From the IMG/VR virus record IMGVR_UViG_3300044730_000851, positions 1 through 64,000 of that record: DNA of 64,000 bases. The stretch is one strand, 5' to 3'. The stretch is from a virus. A program made the translations under genes and the position numbers. Shown in pieces: positions 2,941 through 33,585 of the stretch (position 1 is its first letter; each line of letters opens with the position of its first letter). The notes below the pieces were generated by a model. That model was not told the origin of the DNA, made no database searches, and was given only the letters and a program-made list of their open reading frames with translations.

Positions 2941-4440
2941 TCAGTCTTCGATGGCCTGTTGAATGATTCGGGTAGCCGCAGACTCATCAAGACCGCCGTT
3001 CTCTAGTTCTCTCAACTGGGTAGCGCGGTCTCCGAAGATGGCGCTGAGGACGCCACCGCCGCCCTGTCGCTCGAAGGTCATCTTGACGAACTCGCGGTTG
3101 TCCTCCATCTTCTTCAACTGCTCGACCAACTTGAACAGGCGATCCATTTCCTGAGACGTATTCGGATCCGGATACCCGCCGTTGAGTTCCTCGGCGTACC
3201 TGGCGAAGGCCACACGGGCGCTTTGCATCTCGATAATGGTCGTTAGGAGGGCCATGAGTTGGTCCTTCGTCTTAATCTCAACCGGGAGACTGAAGGCGCA
3301 AGCGCTGCTCGGCTTGAACGCCGGACAGTTCGCAGCAACAAAACAGGTGTTGCACTGACGCAGACTGGCGCCCGTGGATTCAATGACGGGGGCTTCCCTA
3401 ATGACAGGACGACCGGACTCGTCGGTCTCCACCAGAGTCTTGGTAGTAACGCCGACTACGGGCAGGATCCCCTGCTCGGAGAGGTCTCGCGGGGCAGGGA
3501 TCCGCGACGAAGGTTTCCGCACCTCTGCGTCCCTGTTACCAACTTCTCCGGATAACATCTCCGCGATTTCCGCATCCGGGACGTCCACTGTTATCAACTC
3601 ATTACTGGGCTCTTCTTCACCGACCACGAAAAGTGGCGGGCGCCCATCGCGCTTAGACACTGAATCCTCCAGTTGCTGATACGACCAGATAGCGAGGCGA
3701 GTGACCTCTTTGGCGTCGTCGGCCACGATGGCCTCGTAGTCCAGGCCCGCACGCTCAACCACTGCCTTGTACCGACGGCGGGCCTGGTCTTTCTGCTTCT
3801 TCTGGTACCTCTTCAGAGACGTCCCGTCCCAGACGATGGTCTCCCCACGCATCATGGGACTAGCCCACGACAGGGTGCTTGCGGTCGCGAAAGGGATCTG
3901 CCGAAGGTTGTCGGGACGGCTAATTGAGAGCGCGTGCCAAGTCGTGCTGAAGATCCCCGAGAGCGACCGGGTCATGGCCGCCAGACTGGAGTCTGACTCG
4001 ATGGCCGAACTGGATATGGCCACTTCGGAGTAGTCGGAAGCCAACTGCTGCAGGTTGGCGGGAGTACCTCGACCGTCCCAAACGGGCCAGAACTTGGGGC
4101 CCGCCTGCTGGAAGAACTTCCGCTGCTCATCTCGCCAGCGAGGTCCCAAATCTGCGTGGTTGAACTCTACGAATCCAGCCAAGTCGTCAAGATGTGTGAC
4201 GACGAAGTCTTGGTAGTCAGCGGCTAGTTGCTCCAGATCGCCATCCACGGACTCCGTCAGGCCCGGATGGACCACGATGAGGGATCCCTCGGGGAAGTAG
4301 TCCCAGAATGAGAACTCCTTCGTCTTGGGAAACCCGCGCTTGAGGGCCCGCGTGTACGAAAACCCAAAGGCGTTCACATGAGAGTCAATCAGCAGTTTTC
4401 TATTTGAGGGGACCTCGGCACCCAAGTAAATGAGTTTCAC
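2941..4440 (-). CDS. Hypothetical protein with four-cysteine cluster, 499 aa
   Basis: No family recognised with certainty. The first ~270 residues alternate short hydrophobic strands (such as FVEFN, KFWPVW, EVAISSS) with helices, which could be a TIM-barrel of the transglycosylase type, but I cannot confirm this. Around residue 365 there is a cluster CNTCFVAANCP then a fourth Cys nine residues later (CX2CX6CX8C), suggesting a zinc or Fe-S site. The C-terminal ~120 residues are charged and helical. It starts with ATG at 4440 and overlaps the upstream HAD-like gene's stop (ATGA). Its size and location next to nucleotide-handling genes suggest a nucleic-acid or nucleotide role, by inference only. 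Confidence 0.75.
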   Translation of the reverse strand: MKLIYLGAEVPSNRKLLIDSHVNAFGFSYTRALKRGFPKTKEFSFWDYFPEGSLIVVHPGLTESVDGDLEQLAADYQDFVVTHLDDLAGFVEFNHADLGPRWRDEQRKFFQQAGPKFWPVWDGRGTPANLQQLASDYSEVAISSSAIESDSSLAAMTRSLSGIFSTTWHALSISRPDNLRQIPFATASTLSWASPMMRGETIVWDGTSLKRYQKKQKDQARRRYKAVVERAGLDYEAIVADDAKEVTRLAIWSYQQLEDSVSKRDGRPPLFVVGEEEPSNELITVDVPDAEIAEMLSGEVGNRDAEVRKPSSRIPAPRDLSEQGILPVVGVTTKTLVETDESGRPVIREAPVIESTGASLRQCNTCFVAANCPAFKPSSACAFSLPVEIKTKDQLMALLTTIIEMQSARVAFARYAEELNGGYPDPNTSQEMDRLFKLVEQLKKMEDNREFVKMTFERQGGGGVLSAIFGDRATQLRELENGGLDESAATRIIQQAIED

Positions 4441-24029: not shown

Positions 24030-24247
24030 CAGTCAATGACGTCCTCAGGGCACGGGGCCTTCAAGGTTGCACCGCAGCCCGCGCAGATGGCGTCCAGGAA
24101 GTAGAAGGCGACCTCACCCTGATCGAAGCGCGCCAAGATGTGGAAGACGTCGCACTCGCATAGCGGGCACTCATGGACTGCGCCCAGCCAGCGGAGGTCC
24201 TGGCCGTCGGCCTGCACAGCGAAGAGGTCGGTAATGGGCCTGGTCAC
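24029..24247 (-). CDS. Zinc-ribbon protein, 72 aa
   Basis: Contains CPLCEC and CAGCGA, the two knuckles of a zinc ribbon, separated by ~27 residues with a hydrophobic middle. It lies exactly between primase and helicase genes, coupled to both (GTGA upstream, TGATG downstream), so it could assist their loading. Function not established. Confidence 0.65.
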   Translation of the reverse strand: MTRPITDLFAVQADGQDLRWLGAVHECPLCECDVFHILARFDQGEVAFYFLDAICAGCGATLKAPCPEDVID

Positions 24248-25155
24248 AACGCGGCCTCGCCGAGGACGCGCGACTTGGCGTTGCGGATACCGGACTCAAT
24301 CTCTTCGGCCGATAGTTCCCCGGGGTCCTTACGGGTGTCGTCGGTGTACGAAAAGAACCGCACGGCCTTCAGAACCCCGCGGGTTGCGTTCAACAGTTGC
24401 CGACTGGCCTTGCGTCCGGCTGCGTCGGCATCGAGCGCAAGAACGACCTCGTCGGCGGCGCTCATGAGCATGATCTGCTGTCGAGACACGATGGCCCCGA
24501 AGACGGCGACCCCTCCGGGGATTCCCTCAGCGTGCAGTCGCACAGCGTCTAGGGGACTTTCGACTACGACCATCAGTCCGCCAGCAAACACGCTGTACCC
24601 AAAGAGCGTCTCAGACTTCTTCACACCGACTGGGTGGTTGCGGAAGGTGCGGGTGCTCTGGCCCTTCACCTGCCAACCCAGCAGACCGCCCTGGGGATCA
24701 CGGATCGGGAGGATCCAGCAATCGTCGTAGGGATCCCAGAGAACTTCGTAATGCTCGCAGGACTGTGCCGTGAGGTTGCGCTCGCGCAAGGCCCACCGCG
24801 GTGGCTTGCCGAATCCCGCCAAAGAGGACTCGGGGAGTAGCGGCTTCGGATTGGGGGCGTGGTACGGACCGGGGATCGACTTCAGCGTGTTCTGCAAGGA
24901 GCCTCGCACCGCAAAGGTCTTGGCCTGCTCAACGTCGGGCGCTCCGCCCATGTCCACGATGAGCCGGTGAATTGAACCGGCGTACCCGCAACTGAAGCAG
25001 AGAAACAACCCAGTCCTGAGGTTGATGGACCAAGACGGGTGAGAGTCCTCGTTGCCGGTGCGCACGCGGTGCATAGGGCAGCGGGCGACGAACTCGTCAC
25101 CTGATGCGCGACCGGCCACGCCCAGTCGATTGAGCGTGGCCTCGACGTCAATCAA
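24244..25155 (-). CDS. DNA primase (CHC2 zinc finger plus TOPRIM), 303 aa
   Basis: A zinc finger of the CHC2 type is formed by Cys26, His29, Cys53 and Cys56 (RCPMH ... FLCFSCGYAG). The TOPRIM core follows with Glu199 in VVVESPLDA and Asp242/Asp244 in LALDADAAGRKA. It should make RNA primers for lagging-strand synthesis at the fork with the DnaB helicase encoded two genes upstream. It lacks a helicase domain, so primase and helicase are separate polypeptides, unlike T7 gp4. It overlaps the following gene by 4 bp. Confidence 0.92.
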   Translation of the reverse strand: MIDVEATLNRLGVAGRASGDEFVARCPMHRVRTGNEDSHPSWSINLRTGLFLCFSCGYAGSIHRLIVDMGGAPDVEQAKTFAVRGSLQNTLKSIPGPYHAPNPKPLLPESSLAGFGKPPRWALRERNLTAQSCEHYEVLWDPYDDCWILPIRDPQGGLLGWQVKGQSTRTFRNHPVGVKKSETLFGYSVFAGGLMVVVESPLDAVRLHAEGIPGGVAVFGAIVSRQQIMLMSAADEVVLALDADAAGRKASRQLLNATRGVLKAVRFFSYTDDTRKDPGELSAEEIESGIRNAKSRVLGEAAL

Positions 25156-25426: not shown

Positions 25427-25664
25427 TGTCGGCTCCGCGGCGCAGGCGGTCCATGTCGGCGTCGTTCTGCAGGTACTGGATGGCGGCACCCAGACCTCCA
25501 GCGAAGTCCTGGTCCTTGATGACCAGATGCTCGACGACCGCGTCAACCACGACATCGGCGAGTTTGTGAAAGTAGACGCGGTCCTCCGGGAGGGCACGCT
25601 CCCAGGGGACTGGAGTGACTTCTTCGCTGTACAGAAGTTCCGCGATCTCGTTGACGAGACTCAT
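25413..25664 (-). CDS. Hypothetical protein, 83 aa
   Basis: Starts with ATG 25664 (MSLVNEIAELLYSEEVTPVP), overlapping the helicase stop (ATGA). It is acidic, mostly helical and ends in a basic RRGADSARR tail. No family recognised. Position between helicase and primase suggests a replication accessory role. Confidence 0.6.
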   Translation of the reverse strand: MSLVNEIAELLYSEEVTPVPWERALPEDRVYFHKLADVVVDAVVEHLVIKDQDFAGGLGAAIQYLQNDADMDRLRRGADSARR

Positions 25665-27001
25665 GCCGATAGTTCCTCTCCGGTGTCGGAATGATCATCC
25701 AACTGCGTGTCGATATTACTACTCTTGGGAGCATAAGGCCCTCCGCGACTCGCCACAAGACATCCTGGGCAGTTTTCGGAGAGGTCGTCATCGTGGAAGC
25801 AGCCGGTATCCCATCTCCAGGTCAGCACGGCCTCCTCGGGGCCGCAGTTTCGGGACGCGACCACCTTCAGCAGGCGGGCCTCCGGCTCCTCCTCGATCTC
25901 CTCAAGACCCAGGATGACGTCGGAATCTTGGAAGAACGAACTGCTGTAACCGATCGAGTCAGCGGTGACCTTGCCTCCGCGCATCTTCCAGAGCAGGGTC
26001 TGTGTGGAGATGACGATCGGTATCTCCAGCCGCTGGGCCAGACGCTTCAAGGATCGGGTGATAGAGGTGAGGGCCTGCGGTGTGTTCGACTCACCGCTGG
26101 CCTCGTCGATCATGAGGTAGACACCGTCGACCATCACGACATCAGGGCGGCGCTGTTCGATCTTCGCGGCCAACGCCGACACCGTGATCCCGGTCATGGA
26201 GTCTGACAGAGTCAACTCGTTCTGCATACCGTCCATGTGCTCCAGCATCTTCCGATACGAGTTCTTCTCCGGCTCCAGCAGTGAACGACGGCGCATCCGG
26301 TTGTACGACACCTTCGATCGCATCGCGTCGTGACGGTCCTGGCACTCACGGTTAGTCATCTCGAATGTCGTGAAGAGAACTCCGTGCCCGGCTTCGTGGG
26401 TGTTGATGCCCATCTGTAGGAGAACCTGGCTCTTGCCTGTCTTCGGAGGAGCGATCACCGTAATCAACTGTCCGCCCTGCAGTCCCGCGGTGGCCTCGTC
26501 GATCTTGCTGAATCCGGTGGTCAGCCCAAGCAGTGACCCAGCGATCTTCTCTGCCTCGATGTACTCGTCGTAACGACGCAGTGGGTCACGGTGAAGCATC
26601 AGATCCGTAACTCCCGGCGTACCGTCCTTATAGATATCCGCCAGTGAGCGCTCGACCAGAGTCAGGGCCGCTTCGTGGTCGTTGGTCTTCGTCAGGATGT
26701 CGCCTGCGGACTGCAGCATGTCCTCTACGTGCACGTACCTGCGATACCCGATGAACCGATCCAGCAGGTACTCCAGGGAGTCCTCAACCTTGAGGAGCGG
26801 GAAGTTGGGGAACTCGTCCAGGACACTGGTTGCGGTAGGCACCTCGCCGTACTTGCCCCAGTGTTCCAGCAGCCAACGCCATAGCGTTCGCGCTTCCGGG
26901 TTGACCCACCAGTCAGTGGTCACGCGTGCGTCGATGAGAGGAATGATGTTCCTGTCACGCACCGCGCGACTGAGTAGTCGAATCTCGTTGTCGTGTGCCA
27001 A
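25661..27001 (-). CDS. DnaB-like replicative helicase, 446 aa
   Basis: A helical N-terminal domain (about 1-130) resembles the DnaB primase-binding domain. The RecA-like ATPase shows Walker A APPKTGKS (184-191), the TFEMT segment, Walker B VVMVDGVYLM (~290) and STQT (motif H3-like). It should form a hexamer and unwind the fork. Start TTG at 27001; no ATG/GTG with a better ribosome site is near. The C-terminal ~70 residues are acidic and Ser-rich, an extension that may bind partners. The DnaC-like protein two genes upstream is the likely loader. Confidence 0.92.
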   Translation of the reverse strand: MAHDNEIRLLSRAVRDRNIIPLIDARVTTDWWVNPEARTLWRWLLEHWGKYGEVPTATSVLDEFPNFPLLKVEDSLEYLLDRFIGYRRYVHVEDMLQSAGDILTKTNDHEAALTLVERSLADIYKDGTPGVTDLMLHRDPLRRYDEYIEAEKIAGSLLGLTTGFSKIDEATAGLQGGQLITVIAPPKTGKSQVLLQMGINTHEAGHGVLFTTFEMTNRECQDRHDAMRSKVSYNRMRRRSLLEPEKNSYRKMLEHMDGMQNELTLSDSMTGITVSALAAKIEQRRPDVVMVDGVYLMIDEASGESNTPQALTSITRSLKRLAQRLEIPIVISTQTLLWKMRGGKVTADSIGYSSSFFQDSDVILGLEEIEEEPEARLLKVVASRNCGPEEAVLTWRWDTGCFHDDDLSENCPGCLVASRGGPYAPKSSNIDTQLDDHSDTGEELSA

Positions 27002-27003
27002 GG

Positions 27004-27423
27004 TCAGAGCATCCCCGTCAGGTAGCCGATGTCGATCCCTGCGATCCCGTACCGTGCGCGGCGTTCTGGCGTGTCCAGCACCCCGATCACCTCCGGCCGA
27101 TACGGGAGCAACTCAACCAGCGTGTCTGGCGAACTGCAAGCAGAGGAGTAATTGAAGGGCTGAACGCCCTGCCTGTCAAGGTCGTCGAGGATGCGTGTCG
27201 CTTCGTCTACGTCGTCAGTAAAGACAACGAGTTCCATACGCAGAAATGCACGGAGGGAGACCCGCCACAACGTGGCCATGGACTCCCGGTCAATGATCCG
27301 TTCGGTGCGGGTTCCCACGCGGATACCGAGAAAGGTCTTGGCCTCAACGTATTCATCACTGATCGCGTCCAGAGTAACCAAGAGCCGCGGGGGAACCTCG
27401 TTGGAGAGATCCCCGCCCTGCAT
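27004..27423 (-). CDS. HAD-like or hypothetical protein, 139 aa
   Basis: LVTLDAISDEYVEAK and LVVFTDDVDEATRILDDLD (with VIGVLDTPERR later) look like strand-loop elements of a Rossmannoid/HAD-type fold, but the canonical DxDx[TV] is not intact. The TGATG junction links it to the upstream SWIM-like gene. It could be a nucleotidase-like regulator; confidence in the fold is low. Confidence 0.55.
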   Translation of the reverse strand: MQGGDLSNEVPPRLLVTLDAISDEYVEAKTFLGIRVGTRTERIIDRESMATLWRVSLRAFLRMELVVFTDDVDEATRILDDLDRQGVQPFNYSSACSSPDTLVELLPYRPEVIGVLDTPERRARYGIAGIDIGYLTGML

Positions 27424-27716
27424 CAGACGACCTCAATCTTCCCGTAACGGATGATGAAGTCCCGGAAAGCCTCCGGGTCCGCCATCTGTTCGGCGATGTT
27501 GACGTCGGACGCAGATGACAAGACCATGACCGGGTAGACGCCGGTCTCTGCCATCTTGGCCTGCACCCAGCGGACATGACGGCAGTTGCGTCGCGACTTG
27601 AAGGTCGGGCAGTTGCAGCGGACCGCGGCGCCGTCGGTGGTCATCTCGACCTCAAAGATCCCGGCGCCCTTGGGGCTCAGGAAGATCTGCACGACCCGCC
27701 ATTCGCTCTTGGCCAT
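27423..27716 (-). CDS. SWIM-type zinc-finger-like protein, 97 aa
   Basis: The motif CNCPTFKSRRNCRHVRWV (CxC...CxH) is the SWIM zinc finger, preceded by strands (VVQIFLSPKGAGIFEVEM). Start taken at ATG 27716, which follows AGGGGCGGAA; the extended frame to 27731 is not needed. SWIM domains bind nucleic acids or proteins, and several phages place such a protein next to helicase genes. Its function here is unknown. Confidence 0.7.
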   Translation of the reverse strand: MAKSEWRVVQIFLSPKGAGIFEVEMTTDGAAVRCNCPTFKSRRNCRHVRWVQAKMAETGVYPVMVLSSASDVNIAEQMADPEAFRDFIIRYGKIEVV

Positions 27717-27727
27717 TTCCGCCCCTC

Positions 27728-28318
27728 TCATCCGGACGTCTCCATGATCGCAAGTCGATGGAACATCTCACGGGCCAAGTCCGCACTGAACATCTCGGTG
27801 GGTTGGAAGTGTGCGGCCACCAGAGTCGGTAACCCGTCCTCGAAGCGTCTTGTGAGTAGCGAGCGGACGGTAGCCTTGCTCCAGTCCGTAGTCTGATTTG
27901 ACGGTCCGAGATCGGAGAGCACCAGCACCGAGCGCTCGCGCACGTTGGGCCGATCACGCGTCGTCTTGGGGGCGTCCTCGTCGCGGGGCCTGGACCAGTC
28001 CAGGTAGTCGTCAGCGTTCAGGTACAAGCCGGTGGTTCCCTCCTCCTCGGTGCGGATGAGAACCTCCTGCAGAACGGCGCTGAGGAGCGCCTGAGCCCGG
28101 GGGCCTGTCGCCCAGAGGCCAACACCACAGGTCTCGAACTTCCCGGCGGCGGCGATCACGTTCCCGGACGAGGCCTCGTCTAGCCAGCCGTTGACGGATC
28201 GCTCGGAGAACCGCAGGTCCTTGAAGTGGGGACTCTCCAGGGTCAGGCCCTGATACTTGGCGGGAATCCTGGCCGATCGGAGCCGTGACCGCAGTTGCGG
28301 CCGATGCTGTTCAAACAC
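27728..28318 (-). CDS. DnaC-like helicase-loader ATPase with degenerate P-loop, 196 aa
   Basis: The order of segments matches DnaC/AAA+ loaders: an N-terminal helix region, GVGLWATGPRAQALLSAVL in the place of the Walker A strand-loop-helix, LVLSDLGPSNQ as Walker B and RRFEDGLPTLVAAHF as the sensor strand. However the GxxxxGK[ST] is not conserved (PRAQAL lacks Gly-Lys-Ser/Thr), so ATP hydrolysis is doubtful. It sits between the winged-helix initiator and the DnaB helicase, as loaders do. GTG 28318 overlaps the initiator stop by 8 bp. Confidence 0.65.
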   Translation of the reverse strand: MFEQHRPQLRSRLRSARIPAKYQGLTLESPHFKDLRFSERSVNGWLDEASSGNVIAAAGKFETCGVGLWATGPRAQALLSAVLQEVLIRTEEEGTTGLYLNADDYLDWSRPRDEDAPKTTRDRPNVRERSVLVLSDLGPSNQTTDWSKATVRSLLTRRFEDGLPTLVAAHFQPTEMFSADLAREMFHRLAIMETSG

Positions 28319-29144
28319 GTTTACCCCATCCGGGCTTGTTGGCGAATTCGTCTTCGAGTTCTTGCAGGAGGTCATCCCCGATCAGGGAGGCCCGGTAGTT
28401 CGACACGGCGTGCATGAAGTGGCCGACAAGACTCTTGCTTTCGGGGGCCCTGGGGGGCTTCTGGAAGAAGAGATCCATGGCCGCCAGCATGTCCGCGACG
28501 TTGGTGCCCTGTTCCCGCTGTGCGTCACGCAGGGCGTGCCTGAGGGCCTTTCCGTCGGGGTACATCGGCAGGGCGTGCCAGGTCTGGGCCCGGTTGTGCT
28601 CATGGACTCGCATGACGAACTCTCTGGCTACGTGCTCAATCGTCCAGACCTCGCGGGGGTCCTCACGCCAACCGCGCATGGCGGACCTGTGGGTGCCACC
28701 ACGTCGGCGGGGTGCTGGGTCGGGTGTCGGTGTCAGTTTGCCGGGCGGGAGATCATCAGCCACAGGGAACCCCTTTACTTCGTACACCTCCAGAGGGGGT
28801 TCACCCCCCTGTATAGAAGTACCGTTAGGTACTTCTATGCAGTCATGACTACTAGTACTAGTAGTCATATAGACATCGGTAAAGTCCGGAGAAAGGCTCA
28901 CTGGTGAGCCTTCAAGGCTCACAGTTGACCTTTCAGGGCTCACCCACAGAATTTCGTAACGACCACGGCTAAGCCGCTCGATGAGGCCCTTATCCACCAG
29001 CGATTGAATGGTCCTCTTGGCGGTGGCGACACTGACCGACATCACTTGGGCCAACTCGGTCGGACCACAGCGACCTGAGACCTCTTTCAGGTAGGAGGCG
29101 GCCATGAACTCACTCGGAGTGAGGCCGTGATCCCAGATGCCCAT
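28311..29144 (-). CDS. Putative replication initiator (winged helix), 277 aa
   Basis: Residues ~8-70 form a winged helix (LTPSEFMAASYLKEVSGRCG then PTELAQVMSVSVATAKRTIQ). The middle (~75-120) is Ser/Thr-rich and low in conservation-like features, and the C-terminal ~120 residues are helical with basic patches, similar in layout to DnaD-like or lambda O-type initiators. The gene is followed directly by a DnaC-like gene and a DnaB helicase, as O and P are in lambda-type modules. DNA encoding the middle region contains iteron-like repeats and large palindromes (28794-28943), so the origin may lie inside its own gene. The role is inferred from context. Confidence 0.65.
   Translation of the reverse strand: MGIWDHGLTPSEFMAASYLKEVSGRCGPTELAQVMSVSVATAKRTIQSLVDKGLIERLSRGRYEILWVSPERSTVSLEGSPVSLSPDFTDVYMTTSTSSHDCIEVPNGTSIQGGEPPLEVYEVKGFPVADDLPPGKLTPTPDPAPRRRGGTHRSAMRGWREDPREVWTIEHVAREFVMRVHEHNRAQTWHALPMYPDGKALRHALRDAQREQGTNVADMLAAMDLFFQKPPRAPESKSLVGHFMHAVSNYRASLIGDDLLQELEDEFANKPGWGKRV
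28794..28943. other. Putative replication origin inside the initiator gene
   Basis: Within 150 bp lie, left to right: AGGGGG/CCCCCT (28794-28799 with 28805-28810); a perfect 11-bp inverted repeat with a 4-nt loop, ATAGAAGTACC (28813-28823) with GGTACTTCTAT (28828-28838); a perfect 24-bp palindrome at 28845-28868 centred on CTAGTACTAG; and three direct repeats of the 9-mer [A]RGGCTCAC (minus strand GTGAGCCYT) starting at 28893, 28914 and 28935, a strict 21-bp spacing. The first two direct repeats also flank an inverted copy (28893-28912). The stretch 28811-28880 is visibly AT-richer than its surroundings. This layout (iterons, dyads, AT-rich tract, initiator gene) resembles the lambda origin. 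Confidence 0.5.
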
Positions 29145-32050: not shown

Positions 32051-32935
32051 CTAGACCTGTTCCAGCATGAAGTCGTCCACGGTGCTGCCCTGTCCCGAGC
32101 CAGACGGCGTGACGATGATTCCCGCTCTCTTGGTCGGTGAATCGACAGTCGCAGTCGTGCTGGCCACTGACTGCGTCTTGGCGGTGTTCGAGAACGCAGT
32201 GGCCGTGACCGTGTTACCGGACACTACCGCGCGCACTGCGGCAATAGCCGCTGACGCCTGAGCGCTGGCTACCGTTGTGACCGTCGTTGCCACTGACCTG
32301 AGGACTCGGATGAAGTTGGTCACCGTTGTGGTAGACCCGGTACACGTTTGGCAAGACTCGGAAGAGCATGTGTCGCAGACATCGTTGCCGCACAAGGATC
32401 GGCACACTTGGATGTACGTGGTGACATACTGCGAGCAGCACTCATCGCAGTACTCATCGCAAGCATCAGTGTTGGTTACTCCTGGAGGGCACACTCGGTA
32501 ACAACATGATGCGTAGGCCACGCAGATGAACTCAGGACTTAGGTAGCAGTCACAACCGTACGTGACATACCGGCAGTTGCAGGAAAAGTAGTTGGTGGTG
32601 CAGTTGCAGGAGAACGTAAACGACGTGGTCGTGCTGGTTTGCTGGGATGTGACTGCCCACCAGTTACTGCTGTCAGTCACCCAAAAGGCCACGCCCGCGC
32701 CATTGCTGACCGAGGCACTTAGCGACACAGCAGTGTTGCGCGTGTCAACGACCGCCATTGGGTACAACGATGGGGCAGCGCTACTGGAAGCCGCATTTGA
32801 GACAACATCGAACTGAGCAGATCCGAGTGCTCTCCAGGGATCGCCGAGCGTATTGGCATTGGAACGGTTGAAGAGGTCGGTGAAGGTCAGGAAACCGCGT
32901 CGCACCGCGTTGGCGACGGATGCAGTGGACAGCAT
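32051..32935 (-). CDS. Tail protein with cysteine-rich insertion, 294 aa
   Basis: ATG at 32933-32935 (MLSTASVANAVRRG) is chosen because it overlaps the upstream stop (TAATG). The N-terminal ~95 residues (LFNRSNANTLGDPW and VAFWVTDSSNWWAVT) look like a jelly-roll of a carbohydrate-binding module. Residues 110-198 then contain 20 cysteines, including CNC, CDC and CC pairs, in a small Tyr/Ser/Asp-rich block. A C-terminal Ala/Ser/Thr-rich strand region (~200-294) seems to complete the fold. The insertion may bind metals or be disulphide-stabilised. It is presumably displayed on the virion tip. Confidence 0.7.
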   Translation of the reverse strand: MLSTASVANAVRRGFLTFTDLFNRSNANTLGDPWRALGSAQFDVVSNAASSSAAPSLYPMAVVDTRNTAVSLSASVSNGAGVAFWVTDSSNWWAVTSQQTSTTTSFTFSCNCTTNYFSCNCRYVTYGCDCYLSPEFICVAYASCCYRVCPPGVTNTDACDEYCDECCSQYVTTYIQVCRSLCGNDVCDTCSSESCQTCTGSTTTVTNFIRVLRSVATTVTTVASAQASAAIAAVRAVVSGNTVTATAFSNTAKTQSVASTTATVDSPTKRAGIIVTPSGSGQGSTVDDFMLEQV

Positions 32936-33585
32936 TAGATTTCCGTCGTGTCCCCGAAGAGGACCCACTCGTCGGTTGACACTTTGATGAGTCCTGCCAC
33001 GGCATACTGAGCCCTTGTCTTTGCACCTGACGGTGCCCGCAGGATCACGCCACTTGCGCCAGCCACAGTGACCTGACCCGCGCCTGTCTGCACGATGTCC
33101 ACTCGCGTACCCACCGGAAGACTCAGTGAAGCGTTGGTGGGGAGGGTGATCGTGATCGCCGCTGCCGCCGCGCAGAGGACTGTTGTACCCGTCAACTCAG
33201 CGGCAAGCGTGAACGACGCTGTGCGGCTGGTAGTTGAGTTGGCTGGGTAGCGCCCACTGAATGACGCCGCAGTTACTGCGGCCGAGAAGGTGGCGCTGGT
33301 TCCTTCCAGCGCTCCCGTGAGAGTTCCTCCGGAGGTGTTGAACTTGGAGACGGCATGACTGGCAAGACCAGCCTCAATGTTGGTGAGCCGCGCAGTCAAG
33401 GTTAGGTGTGACGTCGGCTGGCCAAACGCCCCACTCCAGGTAGACACAAGGAGACCGGTGCCCAGAGCCCGCTCGACGGCGGTGACTTCGTCCTGGAGAA
33501 GGTTGACGTGGTCTGCGAGTACGGTGTCCACAAGGTCCGTCTTGGACGCGTAGACACGTACGGAGTTGGGGAACAGCGCTGGCAT
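32935..33585 (-). CDS. Tail-fibre-like protein, 216 aa
   Basis: Starts MPALFPNSVRVYASKTDLVD, contains a helix (LLQDEVTAVERALGTGL) then beta-repeats rich in Ser, Thr, Ala and Gly; the end ITITLPTNASLSLPVGTRVD followed by AGQVTVAGASGVIL is the beta-prism-like module often at the C-terminus of phage fibres. ATG start with AGGAGG upstream. Its stop overlaps the next gene's ATG. Likely a trimeric fibre or receptor-contact protein. Confidence 0.75.
   Translation of the reverse strand: MPALFPNSVRVYASKTDLVDTVLADHVNLLQDEVTAVERALGTGLLVSTWSGAFGQPTSHLTLTARLTNIEAGLASHAVSKFNTSGGTLTGALEGTSATFSAAVTAASFSGRYPANSTTSRTASFTLAAELTGTTVLCAAAAAITITLPTNASLSLPVGTRVDIVQTGAGQVTVAGASGVILRAPSGAKTRAQYAVAGLIKVSTDEWVLFGDTTEI

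Follow-up and report, generated by a model that had tools for sequence, protein, structure and literature searches.

The replication origin of phage lambda is situated inside the initiator gene O, where four inverted-repeat iterons of 18-19 bp, bound by O dimers, are accompanied by a 40-bp AT-rich tract (PMC5043065). A study of lambdoid origins published in 2020 left hairpins an open question, but the ones it discussed were formed by iterons (PMC7466680). According to the lambda sequence a further inverted repeat, GTCAGAGAATTC-tggc-GAATCCTCTGAC, starts 44 nt past the last iteron. Seen on the strand that lies opposite the O mRNA, this repeat corresponds to a hairpin with a 12-bp stem, including one G.T pair, and the loop c-GCCA-g. 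This palindrome was reportedly noted in the first lambda sequence papers, around 1979-81. The present analysis concerns a comparable tract in a stretch of 64,000 nucleotides (“the window”; positions 1 to 64,000 of IMG/VR record IMGVR_UViG_3300044730_000851), which is part of a virus record of 76,327 bp that may be incomplete.

A preliminary description of the window had proposed a replication origin nested in an initiator gene and laid out like that of lambda. Based on the comparison with related viruses it is very likely that the tract represents the replication origin of this virus, that it is of the ori-lambda type and that it lies in the linker-coding part of the virus's own O-like initiator gene. 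The wider proposal would be that O-type phage origins, from lambda to uncultured viruses, hold an overlooked working part, namely a DNA hairpin with a GNA or GNNA loop that always lies opposite the initiator mRNA and directs strand-specific initiation by placing the first primer or the helicase; here we regard the case as evenly balanced. The elements in question are, in the reading direction of the gene:

28311 to 29144, minus strand: O-like replication initiator gene, 277 amino acids (open reading frame; Pfam, PHROG, AlphaFold, Foldseek)
28881 to 28943, minus strand: dyad-symmetric iterons of 21 bp (GTGAGCCyTGAArGsTCAmCw), present as two complete copies and one half-copy and proposed to bind initiator dimers
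28830 to 28880, no strand assigned: AT-rich tract, proposed unwinding element, overlapping both palindromes, borders approximate
28845 to 28868, no strand assigned: 24-bp perfect palindrome ATGACTACTAGTACTAGTAGTCAT, situated in the AT-rich stretch that separates iterons and hairpin and peculiar to the window virus
28809 to 28842, plus strand (opposite the initiator mRNA): the conserved DNA hairpin; its stem of 15 bp includes one T.G pair, and its loop, c-GTTA-g, occupies 28824 to 28827
28795 to 28808, no strand assigned: short palindrome rich in G+C, GGGGG-TTCA-CCCCC, immediately past the hairpin

The preliminary description had listed three direct repeats at exact 21-bp spacing. The spacing was confirmed on the minus strand (GTGAGCCCTGAAAGGTCAACT, 28943-28923; GTGAGCCTTGAAGGCTCACCA, 28922-28902; GTGAGCCTTTCTCCGGACTTT, 28901-28881), as were two full copies, of which the middle one is a perfect dyad by itself (28904-28922), whereas the third copy is a half-site only. 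The 24-bp palindrome and the AT-rich tract were present as described; the best 40 bp of the latter, starting at 28830, contain 65% A+T, a value that is modest in absolute terms and is reached by 0.016% of windows in a record with a mean of 40%. The hairpin, formerly given as 11 bp, turned out to have two 15-bp arms, in which one pair is imperfect, around a loop of 4 nt.

The entire record contains only eight inverted repeats with a score of at least 9, and three of them fall into one tract of 114 bp (28809-28922); no further cluster was detected elsewhere in the 76,327 bp. Single-strand DNA folding of positions 28790-28875 on the plus strand yielded a z-score of -7.9. The initiator does possess a real heptad repeat (VSPERST, VSLEGSP, VSLSPDF), which had been thought to explain part of the DNA repeat and to leave the palindromes unexplained. 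When the codons were shuffled with preservation of the initiator protein, neither the score of the 21-bp repeat nor the summed palindrome score was reached in any of 2000 shuffles, and a single palindrome of equal strength occurred in 21 of 2000. Coding constraint alone, combined with chance palindromes, therefore has a negligible probability as an explanation; as sole cause it is refuted by these shuffles together with the residue-position scan for hairpins and the compensatory changes reported below, which alter the protein yet preserve the stem.

According to the AlphaFold model the initiator consists of an N-terminal winged helix, a disordered linker (about residues 72-156) and a helical C-terminal domain (169-268). 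The N-terminal domain (residues 3-66) is MarR-like, as indicated by a Pfam MarR_2 match above the cut-off and by MarR-like winged helices found with Foldseek. The iterons encode residues 68-88 of 277 within the linker-coding part of the gene, and since the encoded residues form a disordered linker, the tract can carry a second message in its DNA at little cost to the protein. The window protein matches PHROGs for replication initiation proteins other than the O-like ones; 17 of 23 relatives match PHROGs annotated as “replication initiation O-like”. The initiator and its relatives match only winged-helix families, and an HUH endonuclease as in rolling-circle Rep proteins was not found among them.

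A search of IMG/VR with the DnaB protein and further searches with initiator profiles provided 113 related initiator genes with 77 distinct linkers. In the window and about 80 relatives the loader and helicase genes come after an O-like initiator gene, and the same linker of the relatives contains dyad iterons, then an AT-rich tract and then a hairpin. Most linkers show two to four dyad-symmetric repeats of unrelated sequence, as judged by eye (GTGAGCCTTGAAGGCTCAC in the window, GTCTCACCAGTGAGAC in L006, CCCACAAAAATGTGGG in L019, GCCTCTACAGAGGC in L061, GGTAAAAAATTACC in L078, as well as TGTTTCA..TGAAACA types). Conservation of the repeats between relatives, which had been suggested as a check, was thus not observed for the nucleotide sequence; what is kept is the architecture, the position in the linker and the gene order. 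Since the repeats of the relatives have been replaced and not lost, their divergence does not in substance argue against an origin. The 60 nt preceding the hairpin contain 66% A+T compared to 57% in codon shuffles, and the choice of Ser and Thr codons in this AT-rich stretch is shifted towards AGT and ACT. CTA/TAG triplets in the AT-rich tract are doubled (5.0 vs 2.7), but since AT-richness alone could cause this increase a DnaA-trio-like reading is not claimed. Beyond the hairpin 80% of 44 relatives have another stem of at least 5 bp, often G+C-rich, compared to 11% of control windows.

The 24-bp palindrome was considered as the conserved core and rejected, as it is private to the window virus; at its place the relatives carry shorter ACTAGT-type motifs or other AT-rich palindromes. 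The part conserved in other viruses, which goes beyond the preliminary description, is the hairpin next to this palindrome. In five relatives (L133, L019, L125, L118, L155) an additional AT-rich palindrome of TAG/CTA triplets, unlike that of the window in sequence, was detected between iterons and hairpin. Furthermore, 33 of 44 relatives (L024, L075, L105 and others) have a TCAACA motif, often TCAACAGCTGA, past the last iteron and at 40-67 nt upstream of the hairpin. This may reflect either a protein motif (STAD) or an additional site in the DNA.

Two pairs of relatives indicate that initiator and iterons are exchanged jointly. The C-terminal domains of L078 and L082 share 90% identity. Between a point just past the iterons and the far end of the hairpin the DNA of the two is almost the same; within the hairpin there are two differences only, a compensatory change from A-T to C-G. 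In contrast, the recognition helix differs (SSDKTVRTALKALE vs ASDSTVRRAIKSLE) jointly with the iterons (GGTAAAAAATTACC vs TGTCACTGGTGAC). Recognition helix and iterons are likewise exchanged together between L022 and L025. Because the two change together, the winged helix presumably reads the iterons, although this evidence is indirect.

Hairpins with 10-bp stems, at least nine of the ten pairs formed and a 3-nt loop were counted by residue position in the 77 distinct initiator genes. In 46 of these genes 51 such hairpins are located at residues 85-160, and one was found elsewhere within the genes; ten sets of codon shuffles produced 19, and 524 kb of other DNA from the same loci contained 16. 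The hairpin is the most conserved part of the origin-like tract among the relatives. Its stem ends at 10 bp: pairs 1-7 are complete by selection, and a Watson-Crick pair is present at pair 10 in 39 of 48 cases and at pair 11 in three of 48. Among 29 distinct sequences two-sided changes were observed at nine of the ten pairs (66 cells, one of them G-U). The covariation score was 0.60 compared to at most 0.13 in slid controls, in an alignment that was anchored on the hairpin, so that the residue-position scan with its shuffles is the fairer test.

The loops are restricted in sequence and in strand. With the closing pair, 46 of them read C-GAA-G, C-GTA-G or C-GCA-G on the non-mRNA strand, and three, from the clade of the window, read C-GTTA-G; L008 and L011 carry a TTTA variant. 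When stems of at least 8 bp with G-T pairs allowed were counted, the linkers (19.5 kb) contained 49 C-G-closed GNA or GNNA loops on the non-mRNA strand and none on the other, and eight occurred in 574 kb elsewhere. GNA and GNNA loops have been described as forming extraordinarily stable DNA mini-hairpins, a description that requires at least two G-C pairs (PMC4686876); in the triloop clade a G-C pair is usually present at the closing position only. Since these stable loops are biased to one strand, the hairpin would act as DNA on that strand, neither as RNA nor as a duplex dyad, and it is probably a strand-specific DNA structure of the opened origin, perhaps serving in priming.

It might instead be assumed that the tract is an origin in which the hairpin is never extruded or single-stranded and represents a palindrome recognised as duplex DNA by a dimeric protein such as the C-terminal domain of the initiator, the loader or a host factor. 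The stems are almost purely Watson-Crick paired, as are binding sites, and the iterons themselves are duplex dyads. However, the arm sequences vary widely at fixed length and loop class, and the 49:0 strand bias of the loops would not be needed in a duplex dyad. Taking furthermore into account that the imperfect stem pair in the window, lambda, Edno5 and Yen29.18 is G.T on the non-mRNA strand and A.C on the other, a duplex site seems unlikely. A hairpin acting in the mRNA, controlling translation or transcription of the downstream loader and helicase genes beside an ordinary iteron array, would be in agreement with its location inside a transcribed gene of a replication operon. The stable loop motifs, however, are on the non-mRNA strand, the single G-U cell contrasts with 65 two-sided Watson-Crick changes, the next start codon is far from the hairpin, and neither a terminator signature nor an Rfam match was detected. 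We consider this scenario very improbable.

The same class of hairpin was identified in 12 of 23 sampled O-like genes, i.e. in lambda and 11 of 22 others, located in the linker and on the non-mRNA strand, whereas sense-strand loop matches in these genes fall outside the linker. The phages concerned include those of Yersinia, Edwardsiella, Klebsiella, Pseudomonas and Pasteurella. Several enterobacterial cases are not independent because they are homologous to that of lambda; the stems of Ab31/FBPa19, mEp213, PSA04 and Pmp10 are unrelated to it.

The tract thus resembles ori-lambda in its location inside the initiator gene, between the regions encoding the N-terminal winged helix and the C-terminal domain, in the succession of dyad iterons of 18-21 bp, AT-rich tract and inverted repeat, in the cGNNAg loop on the non-mRNA strand (c-GCCA-g in lambda, c-GTTA-g in the window) and in the loader or helicase genes that come next. 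The conserved architecture of the relatives, the compensatory changes in the hairpin and the joint exchange bear out the likeness to lambda put forward in the preliminary description. It differs from ori-lambda in having two and a half instead of four iterons, of unrelated sequence, in the additional 24-bp and G+C-rich palindromes and in that DnaB, DnaC-like loader and primase are all supplied by phage genes. Iteron plasmids such as P1, R6K and RK2 likewise have tandem initiator sites adjoining an AT-rich tract, but the iterons of the window are dyads and located inside the initiator gene. The early promoters of phage N4 contain a short template-strand hairpin that is extruded by supercoiling and in which a sheared G.A pair stabilises the GNA triloop (PMC4496689). 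The hairpin considered here would lie on the same strand, with a GNA triloop in most relatives and a GTTA tetraloop in the window; stems in N4 are 5-7 bp long and serve the virion RNA polymerase, whereas those described here measure 10-15 bp and lie in an origin-like tract. A gene for a virion RNA polymerase was not found in a scan that covered about 27 of roughly 96 proteins.

Several observations weigh against the interpretation given here. The strict hairpin motif is missing from 11 of the 23 sampled O-like genes of cultured phages and from some linkers of the family itself. The published minimal origin of lambda consists of iterons and AT-rich tract and does not include the hairpin (PMC6022878; PMC7466680), which may therefore be accessory. 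The folding energies, with the parameters used, fail to separate the two strands of the hairpin, and no member of the family, the window protein included, matches Pfam Phage_rep_O. Finally, the GC skew, which had been proposed as a check, lent no support, as it does not turn at the site and rises along the entire record. The lack of a turn would also be in agreement with repeats and palindromes being an autoregulatory operator of the initiator gene, for which the MarR-like winged helix might be quoted, or a relic, with replication starting elsewhere. However, the tract is located within the gene and away from the promoter, the record has no second cluster of inverted repeats, and the proven origin of lambda is marked by the same parts in the same order. 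A relic is excluded because the tract is kept in many divergent viruses, and altogether such an explanation has little probability.

The genes whose products would act at the proposed origin are:

27728 to 28375, minus strand: gene for a DnaC-like helicase loader, which overlaps that of the initiator (PHROG DnaC-like loader, E 2e-5; homologues in the same place)
25661 to 27001, minus strand: DnaB-like replicative helicase gene (family matches; also used as IMG/VR query)
24244 to 25155, minus strand: gene for a primase of the DnaG type (CHC2 zinc finger, Toprim), a candidate for using the hairpin

Because the architecture follows the lambda scheme, we infer that dimers of the initiator would bind the dyad-symmetric 21-bp iterons through their N-terminal winged helices, that this binding would melt the adjoining AT-rich stretch and that the C-terminal domain would bring the DnaC-like loader and DnaB. 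Beside the melted stretch the hairpin may then form as a DNA structure on the non-mRNA strand. Since this strand would be the leading-strand template for a fork moving in the direction of the gene, a hairpin stabilised by its cGN(N)Ag loop could mark this one strand of the open origin, and the mark would most likely guide the synthesis of the first primer by the phage primase (24244-25155) or by an RNA polymerase reading the non-mRNA strand. This priming role is favoured tentatively; another strand-specific role, such as helicase placement or holding the opened strands apart, is also quite possible, and a role as duplex protein site is rather doubtful.

A large group of uncultured viruses thereby gains a predicted pair of origin and initiator, and matched initiator-origin sets become available where recognition helix and iterons have been exchanged jointly. 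An element of the classic lambda origin from outside the published minimal region recurs, with strand and loop chemistry fixed, across phages of different hosts. It provides a precise and mutable element, in lambda itself, for the old questions of how the first primer is placed at such origins and why lambda depends on transcription through its origin.

In the gene neighbourhood the DnaC-like and DnaB genes are located downstream of the winged-helix initiator gene, as stated in the preliminary description, but a SWIM-domain gene and a gene for a 139-residue protein intervene between the two. The replication set on the minus strand begins with initiator, loader, SWIM protein, 139-residue protein, DnaB and primase and further includes a helicase, a weak match to a single-stranded DNA-binding protein, a DNA polymerase, a UvsX-like recombinase and an exonuclease. 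In the clade of the window (window, L006, L009, L011) the Walker A lysine motif, which reads GPGLGKTT in the loaders of distant relatives, has been lost from the loader (ATGPRAQAL in the window), so that it may load DnaB without ATP or otherwise. The small SWIM-zinc-finger-like protein (27423-27731, minus strand) remains below the Pfam cut-off, and its gene adjoins the loader gene in nearly all relatives. The 139-residue protein (27004-27423, minus strand) begins with GD[IL]SNE and is encoded between SWIM protein and DnaB in all relatives sequenced there. It has no family match, its AlphaFold model is confident (pLDDT 87) with weak HAD-like/Rossmann matches in Foldseek, and it is probably an undescribed replication factor.

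Cultured close relatives were detected neither by tblastn with three initiators nor by megablast, and genome searches revealed no prophage or host match. BRock-type Streptomyces phages have a distant DnaB and a DnaC-like gene in common with the window, and no initiator is annotated beside their DnaB. Other IMG/VR contigs hold DNA identical or nearly identical to the window, which according to the protein scan encodes a phage with tail sheath and baseplate. Beside the tail genes a protein of 305 amino acids is predicted (32051-32968, minus strand), the middle part of which is cysteine-rich and repetitive. Furthermore, a queuine tRNA-ribosyltransferase-like protein is encoded at 2941-4440 on the minus strand, which suggests a 7-deazaguanine modification of the phage DNA or of tRNA.
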